A DNA stretch of 64,000 nucleotides from Nitrospira sp. (GTDB lineage Bacteria > Nitrospirota > Nitrospiria > Nitrospirales > Nitrospiraceae). The stretch spans positions 744,001 to 808,000 of the forward strand of contig JACOEK010000001.1 in the NCBI GenBank assembly GCA_024998595.1, read 5' to 3'. Within the stretch, counting starts at the first letter, position 1. Each line of letters starts with the position of its first letter. The position numbers and the translations under genes are program-made. Below the pieces are notes generated by a model. That model did no database searches, was not told the origin of the DNA, and saw only the letters and a program-made list of their open reading frames with translations. Shown here piece after piece: positions 12,039-24,256 of this stretch.

Positions 12039-12812
12039 ATGGGGATGCAAGGGGATTTCTTTCAGTTGTTGAAAGAGCAGGGGTATCAGTTCGGCAATCC
12101 TGTGGCGGCCGCGGCGGGAGTGGATATTCCGAACGCCACCACTATTCTCGCGCTGAAGTATCGTGACGGAGTGTTGGTGGCAGGGGATCGCCGGGCGACC
12201 GCCGGCAATATGGTGATGTACGACCGTACCGACAAGGTCTTGGAGATCGATCGCCACAGTGTCATGGCAATTGCCGGCGTGCCGGCCACCGCCTATGAGA
12301 TGGTGCGCGTGCTGGAGCATTCGTTCAAATACTATCGCCGCACGCAATTGCAGGAGTTGAGTTTCGAAGGGAAGCTTCGCGCGGTGTCCAAGTTGCTCAA
12401 AGAGAACGTGCCGGCGGCCTTGGCCGGGACCGGAGCCGTGGTGCCAGTCTTTGCCGGGTATGATCATGAGCAGGGCGCGGCGAAGATTTATTTCTATGAC
12501 ATTCTCGGGGCGGAGTTTGAGGCCGTGGAGTATGCGGTGTCCGGTTCCGGCTCGCCGACCATCCGGGGCATACTCCATTATGTGAATACCTGGGGTCCGC
12601 AACCGTTAGCCGCCTTGCCTGAAGAGCAGGCCACCGTGCAGGCTCTGCGATTGCTCGCCAGCGCGGCAGAGTTCGATTCGGCGACCGGTGGCGTGAATCG
12701 TGAGCTGAATCTCTATCCTGTCGTGAAACTCATTACCGCAGCCGGCGTGCAGACCATTGCGGATACCAATTTAAAACGATTGTATGAGCGTGAAGTCGTC
12801 CGTGGACTCTAA
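12039..12812 (+). CDS. prcB: 20S proteasome beta subunit
   Basis: The protein has a 33-residue propeptide followed by a mature N-terminus TTILALKYRDGVLVAGDRR. Counting the first Thr (residue 34) as 1, Asp17 and Lys33 fall at the canonical catalytic positions. GTGAVVPVFAGYD and VSGSGSPTIRGIL fit the beta fold. This is the proteolytic ring subunit of the 20S core. RBS GGTGGAG precedes the ATG. The 133 bp between the UBact gene and this gene is the largest gap in the cluster and could hold an internal promoter or processing site, though no clear motif is visible. Confidence 0.95.
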   Translation: MGMQGDFFQLLKEQGYQFGNPVAAAAGVDIPNATTILALKYRDGVLVAGDRRATAGNMVMYDRTDKVLEIDRHSVMAIAGVPATAYEMVRVLEHSFKYYRRTQLQELSFEGKLRAVSKLLKENVPAALAGTGAVVPVFAGYDHEQGAAKIYFYDILGAEFEAVEYAVSGSGSPTIRGILHYVNTWGPQPLAALPEEQATVQALRLLASAAEFDSATGGVNRELNLYPVVKLITAAGVQTIADTNLKRLYEREVVRGL

Positions 12813-12878
12813 TTCATGGCCGTTCGCGTGATGGCTGCGAGCTTGTGGACCCTATGATTAGGATGAAGGTGACGCGTT

Positions 12879-13712
12879 ATGTATGAAGAACCTTATCGGT
12901 GGATAGAGGCGGTCGGCAATCGGCGGCAGTATCTCGACGAGCAGTTTACGATGGGCGCGCCGGTCGTGGCGTTGGCCTACGCCGACGGCATCGTGATGCT
13001 CACCGTGAGCCGCGGCACGCCTAAGCTTTATGAGATCTATGACCGTATTGCGCTCGGTGGAATGGGGCATCCGGCCGATCTGGAAAAACTACGGTTCTCG
13101 CTGCTGGAAATGGCCCATGTCGAAGGCTTCAATCGATCGCCGTCCGATGTCACGGGGGCGAGGCTGATGAAGTATGGGTTGGCGCCGACCATCAAGCAGG
13201 CCTTTGAGGAAATTTATAAAGCGCCGTTCATTGCCAAAATTCTGCTGGCGGAATTGGGCGTGAAGCCGGAGCGAGACCTGTTCCTAACCATCAACTACGA
13301 TGGAAATTTTGAAGAGCGCCGGGGATGGGCTGCGCTTGGTGCGACGAATGCTGTCCAACTTCAGATGGGACGGTATATCGATTCGCAGCCGGGAATGGCC
13401 CAGGCTTCATTGGCGCAGGCCGTCGAAATCGGTCTCTCCGCATGGGCGGTGGGCTCTCTCGCACAGACCTCGTCCGGTGGGTCCGAGAGTGAGCCCTCTT
13501 CCGTTGTCGAGTCGGGGGTAAAAGCGGAGGCTGAGGCCGTGCCGGACACGTCAACCCTGCTCGCTCATGTGCGGAAGACCGTCGTCGAAAAATCGTTGGA
13601 ATGTGTCGTGCTGGAACGGAGTGGCCCTGGTTCCTCCAAATATCGGGCGCTTCGCCCGCACGAATTAGGCGGACTGCTGCCGCCGGCCGTTCGAGCCTCA
13701 GATGCGCACTAA
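12879..13712 (+). CDS. prcA: 20S proteasome alpha subunit
   Basis: The N-terminus (MYEEPYRWIEAVGNRRQYLD) and the following fold (VVALAYADGIVMLTVSRG, YEIYDRIALGGMGHPADLE) identify an alpha-type subunit, which forms the outer gated rings and docks the ATPase. It lacks the catalytic Thr, as expected. At 277 residues it is slightly longer than usual: a Ser/Glu-rich acidic insertion (SSGGSESEPSSVVESG) follows the core near residue 205, then a further 60 residues (TLLAHVRKTVVEKSLECVV). It lies 66 bp after prcB. Confidence 0.93.
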   Translation: MYEEPYRWIEAVGNRRQYLDEQFTMGAPVVALAYADGIVMLTVSRGTPKLYEIYDRIALGGMGHPADLEKLRFSLLEMAHVEGFNRSPSDVTGARLMKYGLAPTIKQAFEEIYKAPFIAKILLAELGVKPERDLFLTINYDGNFEERRGWAALGATNAVQLQMGRYIDSQPGMAQASLAQAVEIGLSAWAVGSLAQTSSGGSESEPSSVVESGVKAEAEAVPDTSTLLAHVRKTVVEKSLECVVLERSGPGSSKYRALRPHELGGLLPPAVRASDAH

Positions 13713-13793
13713 TATGTTGCCGATGTACAATAAAACGATAATGGCCCCAGCAGCCAGAACGAAGCCGGAGACCTGTATCAACAGTTGGCTGCC

Positions 13794-15284
13794 ATGCTGA
13801 ATCGTATCTTCGGGCTCGAAACCGAATACGGCCTCCTAGTCAACCAGGATCGGCCTGACCACTCGCCTTCCTGGGTCGCGCAGCGTATCCGGGATCACAT
13901 CTTTCATGTCGCTCGTCGCGGGGTCCTCGACCTTCACCATCGTGGACATGATGAGCCTCCCGGTAACGGTGGGTTTTTGACGAATGCCGGACGGATCTAC
14001 ATCGACATGGGCCACCTGGAATATGCCTCGCCGGAATGCACCACCCTGGCAGATCTCGTCGCATCGGACCGCGCCGGAGACCGGATCATTCAACACACCG
14101 TGACTGCGCTGGGGCTGGAAGACACGGTCTCGCTCATCAAGAACAATATCGATCACGAAACCGACGCGACGTTCGGCTCGCATGAAAATTATCTGGTCAC
14201 GCGCCAGTTTCCATTTTCCAGGCGCGGTCTTGGTCCGCTGGTGACCTTCCTGGTGACGCGTCAGGTGTTTACCGGCGCGGGGCGGATCGGTTGTGCCGCT
14301 GATCCCAATGAATGGGTGCAAATCGGCGGGCTCATCTTGCATCGGCCTGGACTACGAGATGCGCAGGATCGATCCATTGTCCCCTTTCAGATCTCGCAGC
14401 GGGCCGATTATATCGTGAACGATTTCTTCGAGTGGGTGCAGCACAACCGGGCGATCGTCAATACGCGTGATGAGCCTCTGGCCGACCCCAATCAATACCG
14501 CCGGATCCATCTCCTGTGCGGGGATTCGAATATGGCCGAATATGCCACGGCGCTGAAGATGGGAACGACGGGATTGGTCCTCCAGCTGATCGAGGCGGGG
14601 CAGGCTCCCCGTGGGTTGGGAATCAGCGAGCCGGTTGAGGCCTTGCAAGAGATTTCACGAGACCCGGATCGCCAATGGATCGTCCGGCTGGAATCCGGGC
14701 AGTCGATGTCCGCCATCGATATTCAAGAGCAGTTTCTCGCCGCCGCACAGCGCCATTGCAAAGGACAGGATGAAGAGACGGATTGGGTTCTGGAACAATG
14801 GGAATCGGTGTTGACCGACCTGCGGAGCGGCTATGAGAAACTGGTGGGACGGATCGATTGGGCCTCAAAATTATGGCTCCTGGAAACCTACCGGGAAGCG
14901 GAACAGCTGACATGGGACGACCCTATGCTGAAAAGTCTCGATCTGGAATATCACAACCTGCATCCTGAACGTGGACTTTGTTACGGCCTCGAAGAGGAAG
15001 GTCGAGGGCCTCGCCTGACAACGGACAAGGGGGTTCAATTAGCGGAGGAGCATCCGCCGCGGAATACGCGAGCGTTCGGTCGGGGTGAACTGGTCCGACA
15101 TCTGCTGGCCTGCGGGGCCGCCGGGGCGGACGCGGATGCCGCTCAGAGTTATGGTGACAACGCCTCCTGCGAGTACATCATCAACTGGTCGAATTTTAAG
15201 TTGCGAGATGCCGCGCCATTTTTTATGGCCGACCCCTTCAAAACCTACGTGCAGGATGTGCGGAGTCATCTGAGCGGACGATAG
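13794..15284 (+). CDS. pafA: PafA-type ligase for the ubiquitin-like modifier
   Basis: The protein has the same carboxylate-amine ligase fold as Dop (GLETEYG with Glu9 and Glu11; catalytic Asp71 in IYIDMGHLEYASPEC) but lacks the Dop loop. Its C-terminus resembles PafA (INWSNFKLRDAAPFFMADPF compared with mycobacterial VDWVHLKLNDQAQ). It should use ATP to join the C-terminal Glu side chain of UBact to substrate lysines. The open frame starts at a TTG (13785), but ATG 13794 puts the GLETEYG motif at the usual distance from the N-terminus. A GGAG lies well upstream, so translation may partly depend on prcA. It ends 8 bp before a convergent gene. Confidence 0.93.
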   Translation: MLNRIFGLETEYGLLVNQDRPDHSPSWVAQRIRDHIFHVARRGVLDLHHRGHDEPPGNGGFLTNAGRIYIDMGHLEYASPECTTLADLVASDRAGDRIIQHTVTALGLEDTVSLIKNNIDHETDATFGSHENYLVTRQFPFSRRGLGPLVTFLVTRQVFTGAGRIGCAADPNEWVQIGGLILHRPGLRDAQDRSIVPFQISQRADYIVNDFFEWVQHNRAIVNTRDEPLADPNQYRRIHLLCGDSNMAEYATALKMGTTGLVLQLIEAGQAPRGLGISEPVEALQEISRDPDRQWIVRLESGQSMSAIDIQEQFLAAAQRHCKGQDEETDWVLEQWESVLTDLRSGYEKLVGRIDWASKLWLLETYREAEQLTWDDPMLKSLDLEYHNLHPERGLCYGLEEEGRGPRLTTDKGVQLAEEHPPRNTRAFGRGELVRHLLACGAAGADADAAQSYGDNASCEYIINWSNFKLRDAAPFFMADPFKTYVQDVRSHLSGR

Positions 15285-17174: not shown

Positions 17175-17253
17175 CTCGCCCGGAGCTCGATGCATGAGAG
17201 GGCGAGATGGCCACAGGTGGTTCGCTTCGATGCTGTGGCAGGACCGGCACCTG
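17175..17253 (+). promoter_or_regulatory. structured 5' leader with alternative pairing
   Basis: Two adjacent hairpins precede the coding region: CTCGCCC (17175-17181) with GGGCGAG (17200-17206), and GCCACAG (17210-17216) with CTGTGGC (17233-17239). The segment CAGGTG (17215-17220) can instead pair with CACCTG (17247-17252), which would disrupt the second hairpin. No known riboswitch class was recognised. The layout suggests translational control, but no experiment supports this. Confidence 0.3.
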
Positions 17254-17278
17254 GACTCAAATTTGCGGGAGGAAATGT

Positions 17279-20008
17279 ATGTCGTCTCACATCACTGCGC
17301 TTAATGTGGTAAAGCCGTTACCGGCCCTCCGGGAGGATGAGGATAATCTGAACGTTCCGTTAGTCGACAGAAAGAAAACGAACGACGCCTGGTCTCTGTC
17401 CATCGCGGAGCGGCGGGCTTCTCGCCGACTTGCTCTTCGCCTCTCCACCCAGCTGTTCTTTCAGGGCCATACATGGAAAGGTGTGACCAGGAGCATCAGT
17501 TTGGGCGGCCTCTCGATGGATTTTGTGTCGGACATCCCCGCCATGTTGAACCAGCAAATGATGTTGAGTTTCAGTCCGGATGAGGGCGCGTTGGACAGCA
17601 TGGGGATCGTCTGCGGCATTCGCTCCTCCGAGGATGTGCTCGTGTCCGGTCGGACCCACACGGCGGTGACCCTCGCCATCCAATTCGTACGCTTGAGCGC
17701 GGCAGACGAACTGGTCGTGGCCTCGCTCCTCAGCGAAGGGCGTGCCCCGTCAAAGCAGATGCGTCTGGCGGCCGCCTTGGTTGTGCAGGAAGGTGAAGAG
17801 TCGCTCATCGATGCCAATGCTCAACAGACTGCCACGGCAGTGCCGGTGCCCCTGCAACTGGTACGAGGTCCCGAGCGACCGAGGCAGGAGAGACGGCGTC
17901 AGCAGCGGGTCGTCGTCGGACTGAGCACTGAAGTGAGTTTGCGGACTCGTGCGGGTGGCCGACCATTGTCCGCCATGACGACGGACCTGTCGACGAATGG
18001 CGCCTGCGTTCACCTGTCGGCCGAAGAAGATCTGTTGGGTTCGGAACTCGAGTTGCGATGGTTGCAATCGATTCCTCTCCATGGATCTTTCAACACTCCC
18101 ATGCCCGCAACAAGGTGTTCGGTCGTGGGCGAAGTGGTGTGGACCAGACCTGCTGCACCTGATACGCGACCCGGTTGCGTCCCTGTAGCAGGGCGGACTG
18201 TGCTGGTGGGCGTGCGGTTTCTTCCGGTTGCGAAGGAAGCGGAAGATATCATTGAACATCTCCTGGGACACATGCAGGGGCCAAGCGCCGAAGCCAAGGC
18301 CGAAGGCCCTGCCGTCATCAGCGAGTTTTCCGAATGTTTCCGACCTTCCGGCCTCCGGATCGTCATGTGTCATGACCGCCCGCGTGTCAACTCGGCGGCC
18401 GATGCGCCGATTGTGGTGTTAGCGCCCGGATATGGAGAGAGCAAGCGCGACTATGTGGCCTTGGCCTATTATCTGGCGGGTAATGGTTTCCACGTCGTCC
18501 GCTACGACAATGTGAATCATGTCGGAGAAAGCGACGGCTTGGTGACTCAATTCCGCCTGGAGGATATGGAGTCCGATCTCGAAACCGTGTTGGACCATGT
18601 AGCCGTTCAATGGCCGGGCCGACCGATCGGCCTCGTGGCCACCAGCCTGGCCGGTCGCGTCGCCCTGAAAGTAGCCGGCAAGGTGTCTCATGTGCGGCTG
18701 CTGATGTTGATCAATGGCATCATGGACGTCCGCCATACGTTGCAGGCCGTGCATCAAGAAGACTTGATCGGGGAGCATGTGGCGGGTGTGCACAAAGGCG
18801 TGGTGAATATTCTGGGTCTCACCATCGATGCAGATCGCTGGCTAGAACATGCGGTGCGGGGGGATTATGCAGACCTTCTGACGACGCAGTGTGATGCCGC
18901 GCGTCTGCGAACTCCGGTCGTGCTTTTTCACGCTGAGCAGGACGCCTGGGTTGATCCCGCCTCCATTGAGCGCGTCACTGAGGCGATTGGTCCGTATTTG
19001 CGCCATTCCTTCGTCGTGCCTGGTGCCTTGCATCGCCTGCAGGAAAGTCCACGGAAAGCCCGCGCGGTCTACCGGCAAATTGCCGCTTGCTGCCAACAGG
19101 AACTCTGGCCTGCGCGGCGCCAGGAACGGATGGTCGAACCCTCCCATCGTGAAATCGGCGTGCAGAACCGGCTTGAGCGCGAACGGAGCAAGAAGCGGCG
19201 GCCGATGGGCAAATCGGATCACGTGGCCTTCTGGCAGGAGTATTTGCAGAATTTCCAGACCATTCCCAATGTGGCCGATTTCTGGCGCCTCATGGATCAC
19301 CTGTATCGATTGATGGGCAACTGCCACAAGGGTGAACGGATTTTGGATGCCGGGTGCGGCAACGGAAACTTCGGGGTGTTCCTGCAACTGAACCAGGCGT
19401 TTCGGCAGCGTTATGGGAAGCGCGGCGATTTTCGCTCACCCGACTATGTCGGTCTCGACTTTGTGCCGGCGGCATTGGCTCAGGCGATGACGAATTTTGA
19501 ACAGGTCGGAGCGACATTACAGGGGCAATTTTATGAAGGGCTGCGGGCCTATGAGCCCATGTCGATGCGTGTCTGCCAGGCCGATTTGGAATGCGCGCTG
19601 CCGTTTCCCGATCATTCGTTTGACCGCGTCGTGTGCAATCTTGTGTTGGGCTATGTGCGCGACCCGCTCTTCACCTTGCGGGAATACCTGCGAGTGTTGA
19701 CCCCGCAGGGACGATTGGTCATTTCAAATTTGAAGCCCTATGCCGATCTTTCGGCCATTTATCGCAACTTTGTGGATACGGCTCAGACAAGGGATCAGGT
19801 CGAGGAAGGTCGTCGACTTCTGGACAATTCTGGTAGAATCAAAGAGCGTGAAGGCGAAGGCACGTTTCATTTCCACTATCAGACTGAATTAGAAAGTCTG
19901 CTGCGCGCCGCGGGGGTCTCTCGACCGCGGATCTATTCCACGTTCGGAAATCAAGCCCTCATTGCCGTTGCCGAGAAGGGCATGGCGCACATCACGGTCG
20001 CTGCATGA
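17279..20008 (+). CDS. four-domain fusion: PilZ - PilZ - LuxD-like alpha/beta hydrolase - SAM methyltransferase
   Basis: The 909-residue product combines four modules. PilZ 1 (about 45-145) starts RRASRR but has SISLGG where DxSxxG is expected. PilZ 2 (about 203-325) has RRRQQR and an intact DLSTNG at 236-241, so it can plausibly bind c-di-GMP. An alpha/beta hydrolase (about 355-620) resembles LuxD acyltransferase: GFHVVRYDNVNHVGESDG, nucleophile Ser456 in ATSLAGRVA (LuxD has AASLSARVA), an Asp in FHAEQDAWVD and a His in PGALHRL. A class I methyltransferase (about 640-905) has LDAGCGNGNFG with Asp690 and ALPFPDHSFDRVVCN. The start at 17279 is set by GGGAGGA five bases upstream, and 24 upstream in-frame codons are disregarded. 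The histidine kinase follows 33 bp later. Domain identities are good; substrates are unknown. Confidence 0.85.
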   Translation: MSSHITALNVVKPLPALREDEDNLNVPLVDRKKTNDAWSLSIAERRASRRLALRLSTQLFFQGHTWKGVTRSISLGGLSMDFVSDIPAMLNQQMMLSFSPDEGALDSMGIVCGIRSSEDVLVSGRTHTAVTLAIQFVRLSAADELVVASLLSEGRAPSKQMRLAAALVVQEGEESLIDANAQQTATAVPVPLQLVRGPERPRQERRRQQRVVVGLSTEVSLRTRAGGRPLSAMTTDLSTNGACVHLSAEEDLLGSELELRWLQSIPLHGSFNTPMPATRCSVVGEVVWTRPAAPDTRPGCVPVAGRTVLVGVRFLPVAKEAEDIIEHLLGHMQGPSAEAKAEGPAVISEFSECFRPSGLRIVMCHDRPRVNSAADAPIVVLAPGYGESKRDYVALAYYLAGNGFHVVRYDNVNHVGESDGLVTQFRLEDMESDLETVLDHVAVQWPGRPIGLVATSLAGRVALKVAGKVSHVRLLMLINGIMDVRHTLQAVHQEDLIGEHVAGVHKGVVNILGLTIDADRWLEHAVRGDYADLLTTQCDAARLRTPVVLFHAEQDAWVDPASIERVTEAIGPYLRHSFVVPGALHRLQESPRKARAVYRQIAACCQQELWPARRQERMVEPSHREIGVQNRLERERSKKRRPMGKSDHVAFWQEYLQNFQTIPNVADFWRLMDHLYRLMGNCHKGERILDAGCGNGNFGVFLQLNQAFRQRYGKRGDFRSPDYVGLDFVPAALAQAMTNFEQVGATLQGQFYEGLRAYEPMSMRVCQADLECALPFPDHSFDRVVCNLVLGYVRDPLFTLREYLRVLTPQGRLVISNLKPYADLSAIYRNFVDTAQTRDQVEEGRRLLDNSGRIKEREGEGTFHFHYQTELESLLRAAGVSRPRIYSTFGNQALIAVAEKGMAHITVAA

Positions 20009-23131: not shown

Positions 23132-24115
23132 TTAGGAGCGGGCGGAAAGCCAGTCAATAATTCGGTTTTCGGCCCAAAACCGATCCTCTCCAGACCGTCG
23201 CTTCTGGAAAAATCCACAGTGTCCGCCCTTAGGAAGCATCGCCAATGTAATGTTGTGATTATGTGTGATGCCCGGTGTCTCGAACATTGATGCGGGAATG
23301 AACGGGTCATCCTGCGCCGTGATAATCAGCGTAGGCACCGCGATCTCAGACAAGACGTGACGCGCTCCTGCTCGATTATAATAATCCGTGGCATCTCGAT
23401 ACCCTCCGTCGCGCGCGGTGTACGTATCATCGAACTGAGTAATTGTCTTCATCGCGCGAAGAGGGGAGAGGTCCCACTGTCCTGGGAAAAGTGCGGCTTT
23501 CCGTTGTACTCGGGCCTTGAGGCTCGAGAGGAAGTGCGCATGGTAGAGCCAATTTCTTGGCTCCTCAAGGGCAGCCACGCACTGCGTGGGGTCAATATTA
23601 GGACTGACTGCCACCACGCCTGCTAGCGCCGGTTCCGATCCTTGTAGTTCTCCCGCAGCTTTGAGCACGAGATTTCCCCCCATCGAGTACCCGACGAGCC
23701 AGATATGGGTCAGACCATTGCGCTCGCGTAACTCCTGCGTGATGGCGCGGTAATCATTGCTGAGTCCGCTGTTATAAAGAGTTTTGGTCAGATGATCCGT
23801 ACCTCCGCAGGTGCGTTGGTTCATCCGGATCACATTGAATCCTGCGCGGAAGGCCTTCGCCGCCATCCCCCGCATGTAATGTGAATCGGCGCACCCTTCG
23901 AGGCCATGAACCAATAGAACGGTCGGTGCCGTCGTGGGGGCATTCTGCCAATGGCAAATTCCGAGAAGTTTGGTGCCCGGCTGAGTCGTGAAAAGACGTT
24001 CACTGTAAGGCAGGCCCTGTCTCCATCTCGGACGAGGCCAATACCGAGGAATCAACGTCATCAGATGCGGGTTCCGGAGCAACCATGCGGGATGAAATGC
24101 ACTATGGCCGATCAT
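23132..24115 (-). CDS. YheT-family alpha/beta hydrolase
   Basis: The protein has HGLEGCADSHYMRG (oxyanion region), the nucleophile elbow GYSMGGNLVLK, a late Asp in TAQDDPFIP, and GGHCGFFQ for the catalytic His, all typical of the YheT/ABHD1-3 group of alpha/beta hydrolases. Members act on esters of unknown identity. The N-terminus HPAWLLRNPHLMTLIPRYWP is also characteristic of the family. The frame extends to 24154, but the ATG at 24115 (MIGHSAFHPAWLL) gives the usual family N-terminus. It is convergent with the histidine kinase gene. Confidence 0.85.
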   Translation of the reverse strand: MIGHSAFHPAWLLRNPHLMTLIPRYWPRPRWRQGLPYSERLFTTQPGTKLLGICHWQNAPTTAPTVLLVHGLEGCADSHYMRGMAAKAFRAGFNVIRMNQRTCGGTDHLTKTLYNSGLSNDYRAITQELRERNGLTHIWLVGYSMGGNLVLKAAGELQGSEPALAGVVAVSPNIDPTQCVAALEEPRNWLYHAHFLSSLKARVQRKAALFPGQWDLSPLRAMKTITQFDDTYTARDGGYRDATDYYNRAGARHVLSEIAVPTLIITAQDDPFIPASMFETPGITHNHNITLAMLPKGGHCGFFQKRRSGEDRFWAENRIIDWLSARS

Positions 24116-24256
24116 ATGATGATCATCATAACCAAATACCAATCTCGCGCCCAAATCAAATTTGTCCTGTTCCTAAAACCCGTAGTGTCTTACTCAAGGG
24201 CTGAACGGAAGAAACCGATAACAGATGCTGGAGTCCTGTTCCAATAGGAGGCGGCT

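Follow-up and report, generated by a model that had tools for sequence, protein, structure and literature searches.

What does a protein do that carries two PilZ domains, a LuxD-type hydrolase and a methyltransferase in one chain, and with what does it work? Such a protein is encoded in the window, by which we mean the whole stretch of 64,000 nucleotides analysed here (Nitrospira sp., contig JACOEK010000001.1, positions 744,001 to 808,000). A first-pass annotation had described this single-protein arrangement, and the description is borne out by the Pfam matches (PilZ twice, the LuxD-type hydrolase and the methyltransferase, all above the curated cut-offs) and by the open frame. The features of the locus are as follows.

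17279..20008, + strand: PilZ-PilZ-LuxD-type hydrolase-methyltransferase fusion protein, 909 aa; frame open from 17207
17405..17722, + strand: PilZ1, approximate, with estimated limits; motif read from the sequence
17888..18265, + strand: PilZ2, residues 228-353, the best of two Pfam PilZ stretches
18374..19084, + strand: LuxD-type alpha/beta hydrolase, residues 390-626; Acyl_transf_2/LuxD family, Pfam
18644, 18941 and 19031, + strand: predicted catalytic triad Ser480, Asp579 and His609, from alignment to the LuxD triad
19325..19750, + strand: class-I SAM methyltransferase core, residues 707-848; best model PF13847
20042..23050, + strand: tandem HisKA_7TM-GAF-HisKA-HATPase sensor histidine kinase, 1002 aa, Pfam

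The fusion gene and its reading frame

The + strand frame is open from 17207 to 20008 and codes for 933 aa. The ATG at 17279, which is residue 25 of this frame and the start taken in the first-pass annotation, is the likelier start, because an SD-like gggagga lies upstream of it, the Met is conserved across aligned orthologues, and four orthologous frames (L031, L033, L045 and L046) start at the matching position. Residue numbers given here count from the 933-aa frame, and are 24 lower in the 909-aa protein, where Ser480 becomes Ser456.

In a scan for close relatives, about 20 Nitrospira genomes showed this single-protein arrangement, with identities of 63-90%, and the fusion is therefore neither a chance joining nor an assembly artefact. 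No Rfam elements were found at the fusion locus. AlphaFold models of the hydrolase-methyltransferase part (mean pLDDT 41) and of the sensor half of the kinase (36) were made from shallow alignments and were set aside.

The hydrolase and methyltransferase domains

The hydrolase domain matches PF02273 (Acyl_transf_2/LuxD family) over residues 390-626 with an E-value of 5.5e-24 and 85.4 bits, against a cut-off of 20.3. The closest solved homologue of its profile is LuxD, 1THT (E 4.3e-35), followed at some distance by the next PDB match (9.8e-17). The two proteins align at the Ser-Asp-His positions and have the RYD...HVG.S.G region in common. The relation to LuxD claimed in the first-pass annotation is thus supported, as is its choice of nucleophile, Ser456, which corresponds to Ser480 and aligns with the LuxD triad. 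The domain is nevertheless a homologue of LuxD and not LuxD itself, since the score for the NCBIfam LuxD equivalog is 82.4 bits against a cut-off of 420. In luminous bacteria, LuxD is a separate subunit of the fatty-acid reductase, together with LuxC and LuxE, whereas here the hydrolase is joined to a methyltransferase, and no LuxC or LuxE neighbours were recognised.

The methyltransferase core matches PF13847 (E 2.8e-15), and has SAM motif I, LDAGCGNG, with Asp714, as well as Asp751 within VGLDFVP. No substrate-specific family scored above its cut-off, and the nearest solved relatives are mixed. A methyltransferase combined with a hydrolase, the former giving a weak BioC score, could be read as a BioC/BioH-type biotin-precursor pair fused in a single protein. 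We consider this highly improbable: TIGR02072 gives 34.7 bits against a cut-off of 184.95, more than ten other proteins in the same genome outscore the fusion protein on BioC, and none in the genome passes. BioH is moreover absent from the 25 families listed for the fusion protein, its hydrolase resembles LuxD, and the neighbouring gene encodes a sensor kinase.

Relatives of the fusion protein were found by protein search in 119 of 196 genomes of the order, and matches that include more distant ones in 93 of 395 genomes of a phylum sample. With the LuxD-family model alone, 39 of 198 Nitrospirota genomes gave matches, 41 in total; the 14 control genomes gave none. One way to undo the fusion would be to find its modules as separate genes in related genomes, as the first-pass annotation had pointed out. 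This is not so for the hydrolase-methyltransferase pair: none of the 41 matches lies in an open frame shorter than 514 aa, and every member that was fetched and aligned has the methyltransferase downstream of the hydrolase, which makes the pair a stable unit. On this sequence evidence, the hydrolase-methyltransferase fusion is real and old. The N-termini vary, with no PilZ domain in L084 and L085, one in L086, L087 and L089, two in the window group, three in L049, and REC-PAS-PilZ-PilZ in a group of paralogues linked to recN.

The PilZ domains

PilZ1 has the RRASR motif, and SISLGG where (D/N)xSxxG is expected. It therefore lacks the Asp or Asn, and its binding of c-di-GMP is doubtful. PilZ2 has both RxxxR and DLSTNG, a canonical motif that is seen only in the window protein and its closest relatives. 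The second motif becomes DLTSNG in orthologues that are about 75-77% identical, and DLISRG, NLTFTG or DVTPTG in others. In two Nitrospira orthologues (L045, 6767-9220, and L046, 6179-8629), PilZ2 is mostly deleted while the hydrolase, the methyltransferase and the 7TM kinase are kept. The PilZ domains of family f3 have no c-di-GMP motif. Control by c-di-GMP, which the first-pass annotation took as a defining feature, may apply to the window protein; judging by the altered or lost motifs in close orthologues and the absence of PilZ from L084 and L085, it is not a conserved property of the family.

The neighbouring 7TM histidine kinase

The gene for a sensor kinase starts 33 bases 3' of the fusion gene stop codon. 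It codes for two HisKA_7TM stretches followed by GAF, HisKA and HATPase domains. This kinase was not mentioned in the first-pass annotation, though it is the most conserved context of the fusion gene: the median gap between the fusion gene and the 7TM kinase gene is likewise 33 bases across loci, and the order of fusion gene then kinase is found in L003-L013 and also in distant families with other flanking genes. Across Nitrospirota the flanks differ, with a YheT gene alongside in Nitrospira, recN, NtrC and HD-GYP genes in another setting, EF-G and DegP in family f3, and others. In L052 the fusion enzyme and the kinase are joined in one frame of 1641 aa. The conserved enzyme-kinase module is real.

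The early-branching loci add genes of fatty-acid metabolism to this picture. The operon of L085 reads FabF, putative synthase (the fusion enzyme), 7TM kinase, kinase and REC-HD-GYP; that of L084 reads FabF, ACP, putative synthase, 7TM kinase, kinase and REC-kinase; and that of L089 reads acyl-CoA dehydrogenase, putative synthase, kinase and REC-kinase. FabF scores above the NCBIfam cut-off in both L084 and L085. The FabF and ACP genes next to the fusion gene suggest acyl substrates. They thereby speak against reversible methylation of the CheR/CheB kind, in which the methyltransferase would place a methyl ester on the kinase, or on some other protein, and the hydrolase would take it off again. 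A single chain with a methyltransferase and a possible esterase, encoded beside a sensor kinase, would suit such a cycle, but the hydrolase resembles LuxD and not CheB, and we think this explanation very unlikely.

Loss of the catalytic triad and of the 7TM sensor

The catalytic triad and the neighbouring kinase were compared across 120 aligned loci, in which the Ser-Asp-His triad is intact in 59, has its His displaced in 3, and is lost in 58. Of the 59 loci with an intact triad, 4 lack a readable kinase, for instance where the contig breaks off, and the remaining 55 all carry a 7TM kinase, which means that the 7TM sensor is present in 55/55 cases where the neighbouring kinase can be read. In L089-L091, Ser and Asp are present and His is displaced in the alignment, and the kinase has no HisKA_7TM. 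Of the 58 loci without the triad, 50 have a short kinase lacking the 7TM region, and 6 offer no readable kinase; in the other 2 (L054 and L080) the kinase is of the 7TM type. The 7TM region is thus missing from 50 of the 52 readable kinases beside a dead triad, and in both exceptions the kinase adjoins a PilZ-FabH-like gene. The SAM motif is altered in 43 of the 50 dead-triad members whose kinase lacks 7TM.

The loci with a dead triad fall together in the methyltransferase tree (SH-aLRT 84), on which the triad and the 7TM region each change once. When triad loss is set against 7TM loss in an independent-pairs test, one event is counted and no significance results. Because of this single change, the association is not statistically independent evidence, and we regard it as suggestive.

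The window genome holds both states. The window copy has an intact triad and a 7TM kinase, and a second copy, in which Ser is changed to Asp and the kinase lacks 7TM, is found in the following operon.

L071 6618-15000, window genome: recN-linked paralogous operon coding for REC-PAS-PilZ-PilZ-degenerate hydrolase-methyltransferase, short GAF kinase, NtrC-type regulator and REC-HD-GYP

The recN-linked operon looks like a regulatory core that has been kept without synthase activity. Aligned over 405 residues, its kinase domain is 45% identical to that of the window kinase, and the phospho-acceptor segments are almost the same. This would fit a regulator common to the two kinases, and does not prove one. 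At most recN-linked loci, two genes regularly come before the operon, one for a SnoaL-like protein that looks secreted and one for a conserved protein with no Pfam match (L071 4259-6247).

These paralogues bear on whether the protein is an enzyme at all. The hydrolase-methyltransferase could mainly be a regulatory or ligand-binding module of the kinase pathway, as the recN-linked copies would suggest, which have lost the triad (Ser to Asp, and other changes) and mostly have an altered SAM motif, yet are retained with REC, PAS and PilZ domains. Against this, the window group keeps the triad and the SAM motif in all aligned members, together with the 7TM sensor, and we consider such a mainly regulatory role unlikely.

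Genes of the PilZ-FabH-like kind seen in the two exceptions were found in 4 of the 196 order genomes, and each of the four lies immediately upstream of a 7TM kinase gene.

L080 5933-7498: PilZ-FabH-like ketosynthase gene
L054 7158-8756: PilZ-FabH-like ketosynthase gene
L153 8118-9701: PilZ-FabH-like ketosynthase gene
L154 7973-9148: PilZ-FabH-like ketosynthase gene, truncated at the contig end

The PilZ domain is confirmed by Pfam only in L080 and L054. The active-site motifs for Cys and His occur in every one of the four, and that for Asn in three (L054 does not match the pattern used). In L153, the pair of PilZ-FabH-like gene and 7TM kinase has no adjoining methyltransferase.

A possible acyl-derived signal

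Our preferred reading, which we advance tentatively and at somewhat less than even confidence, is that the fusion enzyme and the kinase are synthase and receptor for an acyl-derived signal. Ser480 of the LuxD-type domain would attack acyl-ACP or acyl-CoA, and the acyl group would be released as the free acid, or transferred. The methyltransferase domain would then methylate what is released, with the carboxylate as the likeliest site, and a fatty-acid methyl ester or a similar lipid would result; that the signal is such a methyl ester is perhaps so, and is less certain than the reading as synthase and receptor. The window kinase is proposed as the receptor for this product, its 7TM region sensing the lipid in the membrane. 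As phosphotransfer partners, NtrC-type sigma-54 and REC-HD-GYP response regulators might in turn change transcription and c-di-GMP; in Nitrospira, the genes for these regulators are at the recN-linked operon and not at the window locus. PilZ domains may add c-di-GMP feedback in some members. The first-pass annotation had suggested release of an acyl group followed by methylation, with a signalling molecule as one option, and the analysis lends support to that suggestion.

The idea of a fatty-acyl signal synthase with a kinase and an HD-GYP response regulator is familiar from the Rpf/DSF system (RpfF, RpfC and RpfG). No RpfF-type enoyl-CoA hydratase was recognised in the loci described here, and the candidate synthase comes from other families. 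In its mode of working the module is probably closest to Phc signalling in Ralstonia, although we do not claim that it belongs to that system. There, the phcBSRQ operon encodes PhcB, a methyltransferase that produces 3-hydroxy fatty-acid methyl esters, and PhcS, the kinase that senses them (PMC8578825). In both cases a methyltransferase gene is directly followed by the gene of a membrane histidine kinase and then by receiver-containing regulators, the REC-kinase as third gene of L089-L091 gives a layout like that of PhcR, and the proposed class of product matches. The likeness drawn here is one of gene layout and proposed function. The systems differ in several ways: a LuxD-type hydrolase, and often PilZ, is here part of the same chain as the methyltransferase, the kinase contains HisKA_7TM and GAF regions, the regulators are of NtrC type and HD-GYP, and no link to PhcA was seen. 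The full-text literature searched (PilZ with methyltransferase and LuxD, LuxD with Nitrospira, and related terms) has no description of the fusion-kinase system. The first-pass annotation knew of no described pathway with this architecture; it did not mention Phc, a known and comparable pathway.

The kinase also resembles PrsK, of the PrsK/PrsR pair associated with exosortase A and PEP-CTERM, in its order of 7TM, GAF, HisKA and HATPase, and the NtrC-type regulator on the recN side resembles PrsR. Both score below the curated cut-offs (the window kinase has 143 bits for TIGR02916 against 300), and the Nitrospira 7TM regions are in tandem. This resemblance, with three exosortases in the window genome, makes an envelope role a live rival, in which the fusion protein would modify a bulk lipid or exopolysaccharide component and a PrsK-like kinase would monitor the envelope, as parts of a common programme with no diffusible signal. 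The cue for the kinase may then come from the envelope or from exopolysaccharide. PilZ domains, too, are often found on envelope enzymes. The kinase is, however, linked to an acyl enzyme and not to exosortase genes in the loci seen, an unsystematic look recognised no exosortase or exopolysaccharide gene beside the loci examined, and the strictest association of the fusion gene is with the 7TM sensor. We judge the envelope role to be rather unlikely.

Extended to the phylum, the signalling reading would be that Nitrospirota have cell-cell signalling by a fatty-acid derivative, possibly a methyl ester, with a LuxD-type thioesterase-methyltransferase synthase, a 7TM kinase receptor and HD-GYP/NtrC outputs, and that some lineages have lost both the synthase activity and the receptor sensor. 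This is a more speculative proposal, which we offer with clear reserve. Nitrospira play a major part in nitrite oxidation, in natural as well as engineered habitats. The quorum sensing reported for them in the literature consulted here is AHL-based (PMC8553950). If our proposal is true, the conserved pair of acyl enzyme and receptor would be a second signalling route in Nitrospira beside AHL, with a possible link of lipid metabolism to c-di-GMP, and would be a clear example of LuxD-type enzymes employed outside bioluminescence.

Other genes in the window

Beyond the kinase, on the - strand (23132-24154), lies a gene for an alpha/beta hydrolase resembling YheT (PRK10985, 179 bits against a cut-off of 267), which gives no sign of belonging to the fusion-kinase module. 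At 12039-15284 lie genes whose products, judged by eye, resemble the beta and alpha subunits of a proteasome and a protein of the Pup ligase type.
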